From Candidatus Poribacteria bacterium (lineage in GTDB: Bacteria; Poribacteria; WGA-4E; WGA-3G): a DNA stretch of 64,000 nucleotides. Shown here one piece after another: positions 53,864 to 61,175 of this stretch (its first letter is position 1; each line of letters opens with the position of its first letter). Made by a program: the position numbers and the translations under genes. The DNA lies in contig JAAXHL010000088.1 in the NCBI GenBank assembly GCA_012270865.1, forward strand, positions 1 through 64,000, read 5' to 3'. The notes beneath the pieces are model-generated. The model had not been told where the DNA came from, ran no database searches, and was given only the letters and a program-made list of their open reading frames with translations.

Positions 53864-53998
53864 GTGCTAATAGTGCCTGCCTATACAATAACAGGCGCAC
53901 CCATAAATTCTTAAGGTTTCCCGAACTTCTTAAGTCGAGTTCACGGTATCCAAATTATCCTGCCTAAACACTTTCAAAAAACCTTCAATTAAAAAAAG

Positions 53999-54024
53999 TG
54001 CAACTTTTTTGCAACTCGTTTGTA
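53999..54024 (+). promoter_or_regulatory. Candidate ECF-type promoter, sigma/anti-sigma locus
   Basis: TGCAACTTTT (53999-54008) followed 13 nt after CTTT by TGTA (54021-54024). It resembles the elements at 44890-44917 and 59318-59344. About 72 nt before the sigma factor start. Confidence 0.35.
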
Positions 54025-54096
54025 GTAACGATAACTTCACTTTTTAACAGCAAGTTTTGGAAACCTGCGAGCTGCGCCAAAAGGCTGAGTTGTAAT

Positions 54097-54642
54097 ATGA
54101 CGGAAGATAAATTCCTTGCGCTTTTCCACGAGCACAAGGCTCAGATTTATCAACATACCCTCTATCTACTCGGCAATCGGGAAGATGCGGAGGACATAAC
54201 ACAAGAGACGTTCATCAAGGCGTGGGAATACCGTGCTAAATTGCGTCCGAAAACCGCACGTTCATGGTTACTGAAATGTGCACAGAATCTCTGTTTCAAT
54301 CTGATGAAGCGACATAAATTTCAGGTGCATTTGGCGGACGGAGACGATACGGATCCCGAAACAGAACTCGAAACTTTAATGCACACACATTCTGGTCGCT
54401 CAAATCCGTCACCAGATGAAATTGTGGTTCAGCAGGAACTCAAGGATTCCGGGCATTATGCTATCAAGAAATTGCCGCCAGATATGCGTGTGGTGGTCGT
54501 TATGCGGGAATTGAACGGTATGAGTTTCAAAGAGATTTCAGAAGTCTTAGAACAACCTGAAGGGACCGTAAAATCAACAGCGTTCCGTGCCAGAAAGAGA
54601 TTGCGGGAGTTGCTGCGTCCGTATTGGAGAGATGAAAAATGA
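54097..54642 (+). CDS. ECF-family RNA polymerase sigma factor
   Basis: A 181-residue sigma factor with only regions 2 and 4. Region 2 is LFHEHKAQIYQHTLYLLGNREDAEDITQETFIKAWEYR; region 4 is KKLPPDMRVVVVMRELNGMSFKEISEVLEQPEGTVKSTAFRARKRLRELL. ATG 54097 was chosen over an upstream GTG at 53998, which adds 33 non-homologous residues. The stop overlaps the start of a zinc-finger anti-sigma gene (ATGA), so the two are coupled, typical of a membrane-sensed stress response. Confidence 0.94.
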   Translation: MTEDKFLALFHEHKAQIYQHTLYLLGNREDAEDITQETFIKAWEYRAKLRPKTARSWLLKCAQNLCFNLMKRHKFQVHLADGDDTDPETELETLMHTHSGRSNPSPDEIVVQQELKDSGHYAIKKLPPDMRVVVVMRELNGMSFKEISEVLEQPEGTVKSTAFRARKRLRELLRPYWRDEK

Positions 54643-55319
54643 ACCGATTTCCTTCTGATCGAGATTTAACGTGTACGAAAGTACAGGATACCTTAGAGGC
54701 GTATCTTGACGACGCATTAGATGCGGACACATCCGCGCGAGTTGCATCACATGTCGGCTCCTGTGCGACGTGTCAAGATGAGGTCCGCTTCGCGCAAGCC
54801 GTTAGCGGCGCATTACACGAACTTCCGAAACCGGAGCCGCCGTCTGAAATCTTTGACGCTGTCGCGGCTCACGTTCGCGCACATCCGAACAGGGAACCGA
54901 GTTGGCGACACTGGATACGCCAACGCTTCACGTTCACGGACGCTTTAACCTTGCCACTTGCGCGCGTAGGTGCGTTGGTGTGTCTCATTGGGATTATTGT
55001 GTTCGGTGTTTATCAGTATCAACAATATATGACAGTTAGACAAGCCTCACGCGACCTCTATTATGCGCTCGGTAAGTTGAATTATGCAGTGGAACGGACA
55101 GGCATCGTCGTTAACGAAAAACTGCCTGATGTGCGGATTAATGAAGTTTCAAGTCGTTCCTTTGTTCAGATAGAAAATGCTTCCCGTCGCGCCCTAAAAG
55201 AAAAAGAAAAAATTTCATCAGCAATTCATCAAAGTTTGGGTGCCATTAATCGGTTACCTGAGTATATTCCGGATATTAAACACTACGAACGTTCAGAGTA
55301 TAAAGGAGACACACCATGA
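54639..55319 (+). CDS. Membrane-anchored zinc-finger anti-sigma factor
   Basis: A 226-residue protein. The N-terminal ZAS motif is HVGSCATC preceded by a Cys near residue 12 (DLTCTKVQDTLEAYLDDALD), binding zinc and the sigma factor. One transmembrane helix (about 107-126, LARVGALVCLIGIIVFGVY) leads to a ~100-residue periplasmic helical domain that probably senses the signal. It overlaps both neighbours by four bases. Confidence 0.92.
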   Translation: MNRFPSDRDLTCTKVQDTLEAYLDDALDADTSARVASHVGSCATCQDEVRFAQAVSGALHELPKPEPPSEIFDAVAAHVRAHPNREPSWRHWIRQRFTFTDALTLPLARVGALVCLIGIIVFGVYQYQQYMTVRQASRDLYYALGKLNYAVERTGIVVNEKLPDVRINEVSSRSFVQIENASRRALKEKEKISSAIHQSLGAINRLPEYIPDIKHYERSEYKGDTP

Positions 55320-57847
55320 AAATGCAAAGACACTGGGGGTTGCTGTTCATAGCGCTACTTTTTCTTGCATGGTTAACGCCGATGCAGATGGTCATCGCTG
55401 AACAAGAGAAACCCGATAAGATGAAGCAGAAAGGGCTCATCCTCCTCGATTTCCCATCACCCCTTAAGGCAAAGGTTGAAGTTAACTTAAACACGAAACT
55501 TATTAATCTGGTTACCAAATCGGTGAGCAATCAACCAGAAGTCGCCGAACTGATTCAGATGTTGGACGGTATCTATGTCCGTACCTATGATAGAGTTATC
55601 TGGGATAAGAAGGCATATAACTATTTCCGAGATAAATTCAAGGAGGATAAGTGGGAAGTTCTCATCAAAATCCAGGAAAACCGTGAAGTGATAGAAATCA
55701 ACCTGCTTTTTGACGAAGACAAGGTTTACGGGATTTTTATTACTATAGTCCCTGAAACATCTCAAGAGGTCACCTTTGTCAACATTGTCGGTGAGATCGC
55801 GCCAGAACGGATTGAGGATTTGCTTGGAAGTTTGAGCAATTTCGGTGCGATGGATATTGATGTCGGTGGTGCCTTGAAGGCGCAGGGACAGCCGATCCGA
55901 GGGACGATTCAAAGGGAAATTCTCGCTGTAAAAGTCGAGAATCCACCAACTGTTGATGGGGTCCTTGAGGATACATGTTGGAAGGTCGCCCCTCAAGCGG
56001 ATGGCTTTACGCATGCTCGTAGCGAAAACCCGGTCGAGGATGACTCGGTCGTTAAACTGGTTTACACAGATGAAGCCATTTACGTCGCATGGCATCTCAA
56101 TGATTCCGAACCGGATAAAATCGTCGCACTACAGAAACATGACCACGCCAGATTCGGGATGACAGAGGATTGGGTCTCTTTTAGTATTGATCCGTTCCAT
56201 ACACACCGATTTTCCAACCGTACATACTTTATGGCGAACGCACTCGGCAAAAGATTTGTCCGCTCGCCGGTTCGCGATGCGAATAAAATTAAATGGATGG
56301 AGCAGTGGAATGTCGCCGCTAATATCGTTGAGGACGGTTGGGTGGTGGAGATGGAAATTCCGTGGCAAATGCTCGATTATCCTGATACAACGGAACCCAT
56401 TCGGATGGGCATTAACTTTAGCCGGGGACAAGCGCGTACGAATGAACGTTCTTGGTGGTCCAACGTAGGGGTCCAAGAGTTCTACGAAAACGATGGACAC
56501 TGGTTAAATGTGTTACCGCCGCCGAAGCCTTCTGGAATGCATGGATTGTTAGATGCTTTTGACACTGAAGGATACGGTGTTCCGCAAGTATTAGGTCGCA
56601 ATGATAGTCTCGGTTCCACAAATAGCGACCTCTTTCGATCCGTAATTAGCAGCGGATTAAATCGTGTTGATGGACTTCAATTCGGTGCTGGATTTGAATT
56701 GGGACGACAGTGGTATCTTGACCCTCTCTTTTTTGCTGGCTCCGGTTCAACGATCCGGCAGAATAAGAGCGGAGCTTCTACTTTCGTTGACATCAATGAA
56801 GATAACTCTGCCGGACAATACCGTACTGCGCCGAGTCCCTTTATATTTGGGGCGATGCGTTACGGGCTTGCAAGTCGGACGCTTAATTATCGAGCTGGTG
56901 GTGGTATGACATCAGGCGAAAACCTGAATTTAACCTACGCCTTGCAAATCCATCGTCTGACATCTGTCAGAGACCGAGACATCTTGCTAAGCAGCAGTGA
57001 ACGGTTCTTCAGAGCATTATGGGGCACCGATTTTCAGGACTATTATCTTAGGGAAGGCGCGGTGATGTCGCTGCAATGGCAACCGAGGAACGTCACACAC
57101 GCCCTCGGGCTGTCCTTACTTTGGGAAGAACATAAAAGTCTTGAAAATAATATGCACTTCCATTTGCGGAACTGGTCAGCAAATCCCGAACCCACCGGTC
57201 GAAGAAATGCAACGATACATGATGGAAGTATGCACAGTATCTCGTTAAAATACGATTTTGATAATCGAGGAAATACAGATCTAAATTACGACCTTGAGAA
57301 CCGAGGAAGGACAGGCGAATGGTATAATACATTTCTCGTGGAACATTCGAGTTCGGCAATCGGTTCCGATTTCGATTTTACACGTTTCTCGACGCATCTC
57401 CGTCACTATTATCCTATCGGCAAGGGTCGAATTGACGCGCGTTTGAAAGTCTCGGTTTCAACGGATCCGCTGCCTTTTCAACGGCAATTTGTCATCGGTG
57501 GTATCGGCACGTTGCGTGGGTACTCGCTCTATGAATTTGTGGGGGATCACGGTTTCCTCTTTAATTTAGAGTACCTCCACAGTTTAGGAAATGACATGTT
57601 TATCGTTCCTTTCGTAGACATAGGACAAGTCTGGGGAAAGCGGGAACACAACTCGTCTGCGTTATTGAGCGTTCCTTTCGCTGACGTAGAACAAACTTGG
57701 CACCGCATAGAAGACGCAAGGGATATTCAACCGAAGATTAACTTAGGCATCGGCTTCCAGGGTGGACCCTTCAGGTTGAACCTTGCAAGACCCATTGAGG
57801 AAGGACGCGGTTATCAAGTCGACTTTAAATGGTCGCGTATGTTTTGA
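55316..57847 (+). CDS. Outer-membrane protein: DUF4252-like, CBM9-like and BamA-type barrel
   Basis: An 843-residue exported protein with a signal peptide (about residues 1-28). Residues ~40-185 resemble DUF4252, a family often found beside ECF sigma/anti-sigma genes. Residues ~200-410 resemble a CBM9-type carbohydrate-binding domain (PPTVDGVLEDTCWKVAP, DSVVKLVYTDEAIYVAW, WVVEMEIPWQML). The rest is beta-barrel-like, ending in the Omp85/D15 signature FVIGGIGTLRGYSLYEFVGDHGFLFNLEY and a C-terminal strand VDFKWSRMF ending in Phe. Coupled by ATGA to the anti-sigma gene, it may be the surface sensor or the main target of the regulon. Confidence 0.85.
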   Translation: MKMQRHWGLLFIALLFLAWLTPMQMVIAEQEKPDKMKQKGLILLDFPSPLKAKVEVNLNTKLINLVTKSVSNQPEVAELIQMLDGIYVRTYDRVIWDKKAYNYFRDKFKEDKWEVLIKIQENREVIEINLLFDEDKVYGIFITIVPETSQEVTFVNIVGEIAPERIEDLLGSLSNFGAMDIDVGGALKAQGQPIRGTIQREILAVKVENPPTVDGVLEDTCWKVAPQADGFTHARSENPVEDDSVVKLVYTDEAIYVAWHLNDSEPDKIVALQKHDHARFGMTEDWVSFSIDPFHTHRFSNRTYFMANALGKRFVRSPVRDANKIKWMEQWNVAANIVEDGWVVEMEIPWQMLDYPDTTEPIRMGINFSRGQARTNERSWWSNVGVQEFYENDGHWLNVLPPPKPSGMHGLLDAFDTEGYGVPQVLGRNDSLGSTNSDLFRSVISSGLNRVDGLQFGAGFELGRQWYLDPLFFAGSGSTIRQNKSGASTFVDINEDNSAGQYRTAPSPFIFGAMRYGLASRTLNYRAGGGMTSGENLNLTYALQIHRLTSVRDRDILLSSSERFFRALWGTDFQDYYLREGAVMSLQWQPRNVTHALGLSLLWEEHKSLENNMHFHLRNWSANPEPTGRRNATIHDGSMHSISLKYDFDNRGNTDLNYDLENRGRTGEWYNTFLVEHSSSAIGSDFDFTRFSTHLRHYYPIGKGRIDARLKVSVSTDPLPFQRQFVIGGIGTLRGYSLYEFVGDHGFLFNLEYLHSLGNDMFIVPFVDIGQVWGKREHNSSALLSVPFADVEQTWHRIEDARDIQPKINLGIGFQGGPFRLNLARPIEEGRGYQVDFKWSRMF

Positions 57848-57910
57848 TTTTTTTAAACCGCCTCCCCTAAAATCTTGCTCTTTAGGTTAAAAATCAATTG
57901 GGAACTGTTT

Positions 57911-59110
57911 ATGCGATACGATTCATTACTACATCCGAACTTGACAGATGAAGAACTCATTAGGCTTGCCCAAGCCGGTGATGAGTCCGCATTTACGGAA
58001 CTCATGTCGCGTTATAATCCACTCGTATGGAAAGTGGTTATCGCAAATTCGAGACAACGTCGCGATGCCGAAGAAATTCTCATGGACATCTGGAGATCCG
58101 TCTGGGAAAACATCAACGGATTGCGGAGCGTTGAGCGTTTTGGTGGATGGTTGAAGCGTATTGCTTACAACGCGTGTAAACGATATTACACTTCTGTCCA
58201 GCATTCGATGAGCGAAATTCCACATACCGACTTGACAGATTACATCGATCAAGATGCTGTTGCCTGTTTTCGGGAAACGGAACTCTATGACGATGTCCGA
58301 GAAGCCGTGTATCATCTGCCGGATAAAGTGCGGCGTGTCGCGGTACTCTACTATCTGGAATTGTGGAATATCGGAGAGATTCACGCTGAACTCGGAATTG
58401 CGGTAGGGACGATCAAAACGAGACTGAAACAGACACGCGAACTCCTGCGCAAGGAATTCGGTGTCGAACCTGAAAGAGGGAGAACTATGTCAGCCAAACG
58501 AGAAGAATCGAAACACATTCAACCGAAAATCAAAGTTATTGGTGTCGGTGGCGCAGGTGGAAACGTTGTCAAACGGATGATTGAGGAAGGTTTGACAGAC
58601 GTTGAATTTTATGTCGTGAATACAGACCAGCAAGCACTCAACAAGCCCCTTAAAGCGACACCGGTACAGATCGGTGTTAGCACCACACAAGGACTCGGTT
58701 GTGGCGCGGACGCAGAGATCGGTAGAAAAGCAGCCGAAGAGGATCGCGAAAAACTCCACAGTATTGTTGCGGATGCCGATGCCGTTTTTATCGTAGCCGG
58801 TATGGGAGGTGGAACAGGAGCGGGTGCTTCGCCTCTGATTGCTGCCATCGCTCGTGAGCAAGGTGCTTTAGCCGTAGGTATTGTGGCACAGCCGTTCAAT
58901 TTTGAAGGTCAACGTCGCATTAAAAAAGCAGAACAGGCACTGCAGGAGCTTCGCGGAAGTGTTGATTCTGTTGTTGTGGTATCGAACCAACAGCTTCTTG
59001 ACGAAGCGGATCGGTCAATGAAGATACGCGAGGCGTTCCATCTCAGCGACGAGATGCTGCTCCAAGGGCTTGAGAGAAGCATCACGGAATTTCATTCCAG
59101 TACGCTGTAA
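57911..59110 (+). CDS. ECF sigma factor fused to the GTPase half of FtsZ
   Basis: A 399-residue chimera. Residues ~10-75 are sigma region 2 (LIRLAQAGDESAFTELMSRY...AEEILMDIWRSVWENI) and ~128-182 are region 4 (LPDKVRRVAVLYYLELWNIGEIHAELGIAVGTIKTRL). From residue ~206 it is Fts[21 protein letters not shown], then tubulin signature GGGTGAG (about 299-305), aligning closely with ftsZ at 18658. It stops after the equivalent of FtsZ residue ~203, before the T7 catalytic loop and the whole C-terminal subdomain. So it could bind GTP but probably not hydrolyse or polymerise normally. ATG 57911 was preferred over TTG 57875. An internal ATG at 58487 has GAGGGA five bases upstream. Confidence 0.92.
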   Translation: MRYDSLLHPNLTDEELIRLAQAGDESAFTELMSRYNPLVWKVVIANSRQRRDAEEILMDIWRSVWENINGLRSVERFGGWLKRIAYNACKRYYTSVQHSMSEIPHTDLTDYIDQDAVACFRETELYDDVREAVYHLPDKVRRVAVLYYLELWNIGEIHAELGIAVGTIKTRLKQTRELLRKEFGVEPERGRTMSAKREESKHIQPKIKVIGVGGAGGNVVKRMIEEGLTDVEFYVVNTDQQALNKPLKATPVQIGVSTTQGLGCGADAEIGRKAAEEDREKLHSIVADADAVFIVAGMGGGTGAGASPLIAAIAREQGALAVGIVAQPFNFEGQRRIKKAEQALQELRGSVDSVVVVSNQQLLDEADRSMKIREAFHLSDEMLLQGLERSITEFHSSTL

Positions 59111-59344: not shown

Positions 59345-59459
59345 TTTAATAATAGAGGGTGTAAGCTGCACTCTATTTATTGATGGCATAAAACGTGGCT
59401 TACGATTAAACTTTTTGGCGAATGCAACACGATCGAATCTGTTTATTAGGGGGAATTTC

Positions 59460-61175
59460 GTGGAAAGAGAAGACGATGTTCAACTGATTCACAAAATTTT
59501 GGCGGGTGACGAGGCTGCGTTTGGCACCTTGGTCGAGAAGTACCAAAAGAGTGTTCATGCGCTTGTATGGCGGAAGATTGGCGATTATCATTACGCTGAA
59601 GATATTATGCAAGATGCCTTCCTTCAAGCATACAAAAAACTCTCGACGCTTAAAAACCCCGATCAATTTGCAGGGTGGCTCTATGTCATTGCGAATCGGC
59701 TTTGCATTGATTGGGCGCGAAAGCAGAAGTCAGTCCGAAAGCAAAAGCCTGAGACGCAATCTTTGGCGGACACGCGTCCGGAAGACATTGAAGAATCCTC
59801 TTACACGCACCATATATCAGAACAGGGGGTGAAAGAGAGCACCGAGTATTGCCAAGAGCTTGTCCGGAGGCTTTTGGAAAAACTGCCAGAGAACGAGCGC
59901 ACCGTCGTAACACTTTTCTATCTCGACGAAATGTCAACGAAAGAGATTGGCAAATTCTTAGGCGTTTCGGCGAATACGATTGCGAGTCGGCTTCATCGGG
60001 CGCGAAAGCGTCTACAAGCAGATCAAGAACGCTTGGTTCAAGAAATTTTTGATGATGTACAGTTGTCAGAAAATATGAAGGAGGATATTGTGAAACAATT
60101 AGAAAGTATTCAGAGCAAATTTGATGCGTTCATGGCGCAGGCAAAATCCGACCCGACATCGGGGGCGGACATTCTTACAGAGGCACACGATCAACTTGAA
60201 GAGGCACTTAAGGGTGAAATCACGTCCGAGTTGGCGCGCCTCGCTCATGAGATATACAAGTATATGGGCAAACCCGGAATAGAAAAAAACGTTTCTCTGC
60301 ACCGTAGGTATCTGAATGTGGTTTCAGACAATAAGGAACGTTTCTGGTCGCATCGGCAGTTAAGTGTTAACCTCGCTATGCTTGGGCGGAATAGGGAAGC
60401 AATCGAGGAACAGGTTCGGCTTTATCACTGGGCATGTGAGCATAGATCAGATGCGGATGTGTTATATGTGCTTAGCAGTTGTTTAGAGCACGCTGGATGT
60501 TGGAAGGCGGAAGGGCGTGTTGATGACTGGATTCAACTTTATAATGATGCCTCTCAACGTTTAGAGAACCCTGAATTGAGTCGCTACGACCGTTGTAATT
60601 TCCTACAGATCGGATCAGAAATCTTGCGTTCTTACGGCAGGTCAGATGAGACACTTCTTGGTATGGAAAAGTTGGAACGTTTTAACGACGAACCCGATTG
60701 GGAGCATTATTTTAGGTTCTGGTTGGCTGTCCGAACGAATTGGCTCCTTGTGTATAGTAGCCGTGAAGATTCGGATCGTTTCGATCAAGCATTGGCGGAA
60801 GTCCAGACGTTTATTGAGGGAGAGATGGAAAAACGGGATGCCGGTCATTCTGTGAACCTCGGTAACCTTCATTGGGCTGCGCACGACATCGGTTGTTGCT
60901 TGGTGTGGTTACAGAAGTATAACGAGGCGAAACGTCTCCTGCAAGTCGCTATTGATGTGGATAGTGTCAACGATTATGGTCACTTCATGCTTGCTGTGAG
61001 TATCTGGGCATCTGAACGTAACCGCGAGAAGACTTTACATCATTTAAAATTTGCGCATGAGATTGTCCTTGCTGCATGGAATCGGGGTAAGTATTACCAG
61101 ACGTTCCTTGGGACACCTGAATTTGCGGATGTAAAGGATGATCCAGAGTTTCTGAAGGCTCTGGGGCAGAAGTAA
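59460..61175 (+). CDS. ECF sigma factor with long TPR-like C-terminal extension
   Basis: A 571-residue regulator starting at GTG 59460, with AGGGGGA upstream; a TTG at 59415 was rejected. Sigma region 2 (about residues 12-70, AEDIMQDAFLQAYKKL) and region 4 (about 135-190, LPENERTVVTLFYLDEMSTKEIGKFLGVSANTIASRLHRARKRL) are followed by ~360 residues of helical TPR-like repeats. At the junction AAGGAGG and GTG 60090 (codon 211) form a plausible internal start. The intact counterpart of the amber-interrupted gene at 43168-44850. Downstream are two ABC-2 permeases in the same order as at that locus. Confidence 0.92.
   Translation: MEREDDVQLIHKILAGDEAAFGTLVEKYQKSVHALVWRKIGDYHYAEDIMQDAFLQAYKKLSTLKNPDQFAGWLYVIANRLCIDWARKQKSVRKQKPETQSLADTRPEDIEESSYTHHISEQGVKESTEYCQELVRRLLEKLPENERTVVTLFYLDEMSTKEIGKFLGVSANTIASRLHRARKRLQADQERLVQEIFDDVQLSENMKEDIVKQLESIQSKFDAFMAQAKSDPTSGADILTEAHDQLEEALKGEITSELARLAHEIYKYMGKPGIEKNVSLHRRYLNVVSDNKERFWSHRQLSVNLAMLGRNREAIEEQVRLYHWACEHRSDADVLYVLSSCLEHAGCWKAEGRVDDWIQLYNDASQRLENPELSRYDRCNFLQIGSEILRSYGRSDETLLGMEKLERFNDEPDWEHYFRFWLAVRTNWLLVYSSREDSDRFDQALAEVQTFIEGEMEKRDAGHSVNLGNLHWAAHDIGCCLVWLQKYNEAKRLLQVAIDVDSVNDYGHFMLAVSIWASERNREKTLHHLKFAHEIVLAAWNRGKYYQTFLGTPEFADVKDDPEFLKALGQK

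Follow-up and report, generated by a model that had tools for sequence, protein, structure and literature searches.

A sigma factor joined to the N-terminal half of FtsZ is conserved in sponge-associated Poribacteria

Sponge-associated Poribacteria possess a gene in which an ECF-type sigma factor is joined to the N-terminal GTPase half of FtsZ, and this fusion is real, not a local accident. In the 64-kb stretch of DNA analyzed here (the window), the gene occupies positions 57911 to 59110 of the forward strand, where an unbroken frame of 399 codons runs from ATG to TAA. Sigma regions 2 (aa 31 to 95, 58001 to 58195; PF04542, Sigma70_r2) and 4 (aa 128 to 178, 58292 to 58444; PF08281, Sigma70_r4_2) both score above the Pfam cut-off and are arranged as in ECF sigma factors, and the score of the protein with TIGR02937 (sigma70-ECF) is 63.7 bits against a cut-off of 42.9. 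As Pfam and the alignment of orthologues agree, an extra conserved domain sits C-terminal of sigma region 4. It is reached through a flexible linker (aa 186 to 202, 58466 to 58516; pLDDT below 50 in the AlphaFold2 model) and consists of an FtsZ GTPase domain (aa 206 to 365, 58526 to 59005; PF00091, Tubulin/FtsZ, 152 bits) followed by helix H7 (aa 372 to 398, 59024 to 59104; from the AlphaFold2 model and the alignment), which is the last FtsZ element retained. We call a full sigma-FtsZ fusion of this form the S type.

The original prediction had described an uninterrupted frame of sigma regions 2 and 4 with the GTPase half of FtsZ, lacking the T7 loop and the C-terminal subdomain, and both statements hold. 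The protein ends after H7 and before the T7 loop, with the same end point across the aligned S-type orthologues, and a Pfam search finds no FtsZ_C domain in it, while the full-length ftsZ of the same genome (18658 to 19983, reverse strand) has both FtsZ domains (PF00091 and PF12327). With 238.4 bits, the fusion falls below the cut-off of the FtsZ equivalog TIGR00065 (295.2 bits). It had also been called highly similar to the FtsZ of the window; homology is clear, but at 62 to 65% identity over the part common to both, the wording was slightly strong. An AlphaFold2 model built on an alignment of 90 rows (mean pLDDT 81) consists of helical sigma domains, the unstructured linker, and a confident FtsZ N-terminal domain with a full-length H7, and a Foldseek search returned FtsZ structures, consistent with an FtsZ-like fold. 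The placement of the domains relative to each other is uncertain (pTM 0.51), and a sigma-FtsZ contact is not predicted by the model.

The S-type fusion is present in 36 of 38 Poribacteria genomes of the same genus, full length, at 71 to 91% identity and free of internal stops; carriers include the single-contig chromosomes G033, G035, G036, and G037, and the two genomes that lack it (G002 and G030) are drafts, 81% and 89% complete. In a second genus, 8 of the 18 genomes carry it. Across the family, 44 of 59 genomes have the S type and 55 of 59 have some sigma-FtsZ form, which contradicts the concern, raised with the original prediction, that the fusion might be absent from every relative. Both halves are under purifying selection, with a pairwise dN/dS (495 pairs) of about 0.15: 0.146 in the sigma part and 0.167 in the FtsZ part. 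An assembly chimera, a frameshift, or a chance frame is ruled out by the intact orthologues, some of them in single-contig chromosomes, and a local accident by the conservation, the dN/dS values, and the FtsZ tree. No sigma-FtsZ fusion was found in 26 Poribacteria genomes from other families of the phylum; the orthologue scan detects close relatives only, and its E-values leave room for distant fusions outside Poribacteria. In phage records searched with the fusion, matches were FtsZ-like only and never spanned both halves, which speaks against a phage origin.

In a tree of FtsZ N-terminal domains, the fused domains form one group (97/89) beside the family's own FtsZ, within which the S type is a single clade (100/97). 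The fused FtsZ domains thus go back to an old, retained duplicate of that FtsZ. Poribacterial FtsZ has 88 positions with a conservation of at least 90%, and the S type keeps the same consensus at 76 of them, including the nucleotide (GTP-binding) loops, in line with the original suggestion that the domain could bind GTP. In the T4 loop, the second Thr is replaced by Ala in most S-type proteins, giving GGGTGAG, which fits the classical tubulin signature. The T7 loop of FtsZ acts on the nucleotide of the neighboring subunit. As anticipated, the fusion, having neither this loop nor the C-terminal domain, should be incapable of forming a normal filament alone, and, by established FtsZ structure, a half with the nucleotide face only could bind only the C-terminal face of another subunit. 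We infer from these features that the FtsZ half would bind GTP and that its docking surface would be the C-terminal face of FtsZ, which forms the plus end of the filament and is where FtsZ regulators usually act (PMC11938149).

Searches with the fusion revealed paralogous sigma factors fused to FtsZ-DnaE, DnaE, DnaN (the sliding clamp), or WD40 propellers. Sigma-FtsZ paralogues that have the C-terminal domain are 554 to 630 aa long, and sigma-FtsZ-DnaE paralogues reach ~1350 to 1758 aa, with PHP, polymerase, and finger domains. In one triple fusion of 1353 aa (locus L034, 3810 to 7871, G000:C60), the DnaE part, which ends after the finger domain, shares 77% identity with the DnaE encoded by the separate gene that the genome retains; the 1758-aa frame of L163 (G025:C103) has ~340 extra terminal residues. 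L-type fusions retain the T7 loop and the C-terminal domain, and their dN/dS is 0.05 to 0.19 in all domains and 0.35 in the linker before DnaE. Sigma-DnaE and sigma-WD40 genes are exemplified by L116 and L035, respectively. In sigma-DnaN proteins (L215, 304 to 2046; L221, 91 to 1836; L222), the sigma regions and all three clamp domains lie within one frame; L045 (577 to 2286) and L053 (reverse strand) are further loci among the sigma-DnaN genes, which comprise two sigma lineages. At least 29 genomes of the family carry DnaN joined to a sigma factor of the second lineage, which is distant (~29% identity), and in 14 of those the gene lies within 10 kb of a sigma-FtsZ gene on the same strand. Genus g2 has a DnaN-FtsZ fusion that lacks a sigma factor (L159, 3929 to 6010, reverse strand; L155).

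Just upstream of the fusion gene, at 57850 to 57884 (forward strand), lies a promoter-like element, TTTTTAAACC-N18-CTCTTTA, an exact match to a pattern conserved upstream of sigma-fusion genes; it occurs once in the window, with zero expected from window shuffles. Ahead of S-type genes, conservation is confined to TTTTTTAAACC-N18-CTCTTTA, after which comes a short leader, and the same element precedes L, M, DnaE, WD40, and first-lineage DnaN fusions. With up to two mismatches, the genome studied has six sites: the S and L fusions match exactly, two sigma-WD40 genes have one mismatch, and one of the two remaining sites adjoins a MacB-like permease, on its upstream side. Exact sites number 17 in 13 genomes (this one and 12 others), all upstream of sigma fusions, and none was found in G081, a genome outside the family. 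Autoregulated promoters are common among ECF sigma factors, and a single element common to the sigma-fusion genes suggests that they too are autoregulated. Stand-alone, more diverged sigma factors are preceded by a diverged element (TGAACC ... CTCTATG), a difference that would follow if every sigma factor recognized a promoter of its own. MacB-like permease genes and other ECF sigma genes repeatedly have a site with one or two mismatches upstream; such sites are few and little above a reversed-pattern control, and a wider regulon including both kinds of gene is possible. MacB-like permease genes with a near match upstream, as possible targets, are found at L206, L209, L210, L213, L218, L220, and L223.

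The predicted operon-like run was confirmed as far as the named neighbors go: an ECF sigma gene (53998 to 54642) and a zinc-finger anti-sigma gene (54639 to 55319) are followed by a gene for an outer-membrane protein with DUF4252, CBM9, and Omp85 parts (55316 to 57847), all on the forward strand. However, only some of the relatives share this gene order, and the fusion is preceded by a conserved promoter-like element of its own. Since the upstream genes vary while the 60 bp ahead of the fusion are conserved among relatives, an operon in which they and the fusion form a unit is a weakened reading. An ECF/TPR sigma gene lies at 59415 to 61175. In genome G025, two sigma-FtsZ genes stand in tandem (L036, 7015 to 8305 and 11117 to 12452).

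The best available reading of these sequences would be a coupling of the sigma factor to the state of FtsZ, or a capping of FtsZ filaments. In the explanation that we tentatively favor, with slightly less than even confidence, the protein would be an ECF-type sigma factor that is autoregulated and is controlled through its C-terminal domain, a diverged FtsZ GTPase half that docks on the plus-end face of FtsZ. The FtsZ half would bind GTP and, having the “top” nucleotide face and lacking the “bottom” face, could attach to FtsZ subunits or filaments only where their C-terminal face is exposed. The sigma factor would then be tied to FtsZ polymers while FtsZ is assembly competent, and its availability would change otherwise; docking could either restrain or activate it. 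It would drive its own promoter and those of the sister fusions, while a free FtsZ half, translated from an internal start, would compete with the fused protein for docking on FtsZ and set a threshold. Together with the DnaE and DnaN fusions, such proteins could form a set reporting division and replication status to transcription. Counting against this explanation are the uncertain placement of the domains relative to each other, the scarcity of near-match sites outside the fusions, the WD40 sister fusions, for which no connection with division is apparent, and the possibility that the true effector is the free FtsZ half.

That free half is suggested by the sigma/FtsZ junction. A ribosome-binding-like site, AGAGGGAGA (58475 to 58483, forward strand), conserved in orthologues, precedes a nested in-frame ATG at 58487, from which a putative free FtsZ half of 207 aa (58487 to 59110) could be translated. 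All 36 aligned S-type orthologues have an ATG 8 to 13 codons ahead of the FtsZ domain together with a purine-rich ribosome-binding-like site, whose purines are constant while the surrounding residues vary (RGRT, REGI, RGGT). The mean duplex energy of the nested site is −8.6 kcal/mol, compared with −1.5 kcal/mol for other internal Met codons; synonymous resampling gave a mean of −6.1 kcal/mol, with 14% of the resampled sites equally good, so part of this signal follows from the encoded residues. Comparable junction sites occur in the other fusions, across all partner types, with GTG as the start in two cases; the count of 91 of 91 is permissive, as any ATG, GTG, or TTG within a 31-codon stretch was accepted. 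At sigma-DnaN junctions, AAGGAGG precedes the start of DnaN itself, or the sequence still resembles the leader of a stand-alone dnaN. With such a site and an in-frame start at or near the junction, a free partner protein, here the FtsZ half, is probably made besides the fused one.

A first alternative, which we regard as unlikely but worth weighing, would take this free half as the effector: it would cap or poison FtsZ filaments and slow division when the switch is on, with the sigma factor serving as a feedback switch and the fused protein being secondary. Besides the junction start with its ribosome-binding-like site, found in all partner types, it is favored by the nature of the retained half, which, without the T7 loop or the C-terminal domain, is the one expected to cap. 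However, the L-type fusions keep both of these parts, and the linker is open in all 36 S-type orthologues, although 59% of neutrally evolved linkers would acquire a stop (a guide only, as the sequences are related). A linker frame that is never broken suggests that the fused product itself is selected and, with the nested site kept as well, both products look likely.

It is improbable that the FtsZ half is merely a GTP sensor or a self-association domain that never contacts FtsZ. Such a role would agree with the retention of the nucleotide loops and the loss of the polymer-forming C-terminal part, but it leaves unexplained why DnaE and DnaN were taken as partners in parallel. Less probable still would be a guard or decoy function, in which copies of FtsZ, DnaE, and DnaN act as bait for phage or toxin proteins and an attack frees the sigma factor to start a response. 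The partners are essential machines, several different baits are carried by related sigma factors, and FtsZ and the sliding clamp are known phage targets, all of which would suit bait; yet no defense genes were recognized around the locus, and the short list of predicted targets comprises MacB-type permeases and other sigma factors. A neutral accident, in which the stop codon between two genes was lost without functional consequence, is scarcely credible, for although the junction retains the apparent start of a second gene and the sigma-DnaN linker is still like a dnaN leader, it is already contradicted by the occurrence in two genera, a dN/dS of ~0.15 on both halves, and the unbroken linker.

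Regulation of ECF sigma factors through C-terminal extensions is established, with at least 26 ECF groups having extensions, including WD40 in ECF57 (PMC8999054). The Poribacterial proteins share their plan, a sigma2-sigma4 core followed by an extra conserved domain, and differ in that the extension is half of FtsZ (FtsZ-DnaE, DnaE, or DnaN in the sisters), in the nested junction start, and in the single promoter-like element common to differently fused paralogues. FtsZ, tubulin, and GTPase are unmentioned in that review of ECF extensions (PMC8999054), and a literature search, with most subscription papers outside its reach, found no description of FtsZ, DnaE, or DnaN as a sigma extension, in line with the original prediction, which knew of no described sigma-FtsZ fusion. 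Compared with FtsZ (TIGR00065), the fusion has the GTPase domain, the nucleotide loops, helix H7, and the fold, but lacks the T7 loop, the C-terminal domain, and the tail, scores below the equivalog level, and is joined to a sigma factor. The plus-end cappers and sequesterers MciZ, SulA, MinC, and MipZ use the same C-terminal face of FtsZ as that predicted for the fusion (PMC11938149); they are unrelated to it in sequence, whereas its binder would be the nucleotide face of FtsZ itself, carrying a sigma factor.

Transcription is usually connected to division and replication via separate regulators. With FtsZ, a DNA polymerase, or the clamp physically part of a sigma factor, the connection would be direct and could be tested with purified proteins, and through the fusion gene expression may be coupled to both processes. 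In a broader form of the favored reading, which is possible although we hold it with some doubt, one Poribacterial family would have a cell cycle sigma system: sigma factors joined to an FtsZ half, FtsZ-DnaE, DnaE, or DnaN, wired in the studied lineage by one autoregulatory promoter, with a second, distant lineage that separately joined DnaN, often beside sigma-FtsZ, with nested starts yielding free partners, and with transcription tied to the state of the Z-ring and replisome. If true, this would be a new kind of regulatory system in which evolution re-used parts of essential machines as sensor domains, and it would offer a way into the cell cycle of a phylum without cultured members. Phage T4 late transcription, in which the gp55 sigma factor is coupled to the sliding clamp gp45 (PMC7892883), would then have a cellular counterpart. 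The direct parallel is with the sister sigma-DnaN fusions, as in both a sigma factor is coupled to a replication part; the T4 coupling, unlike the fusions, is noncovalent, viral, and without FtsZ. In many of these genomes, two stand-alone dnaN genes lie side by side (e.g., G001:C14 and G000:C82).
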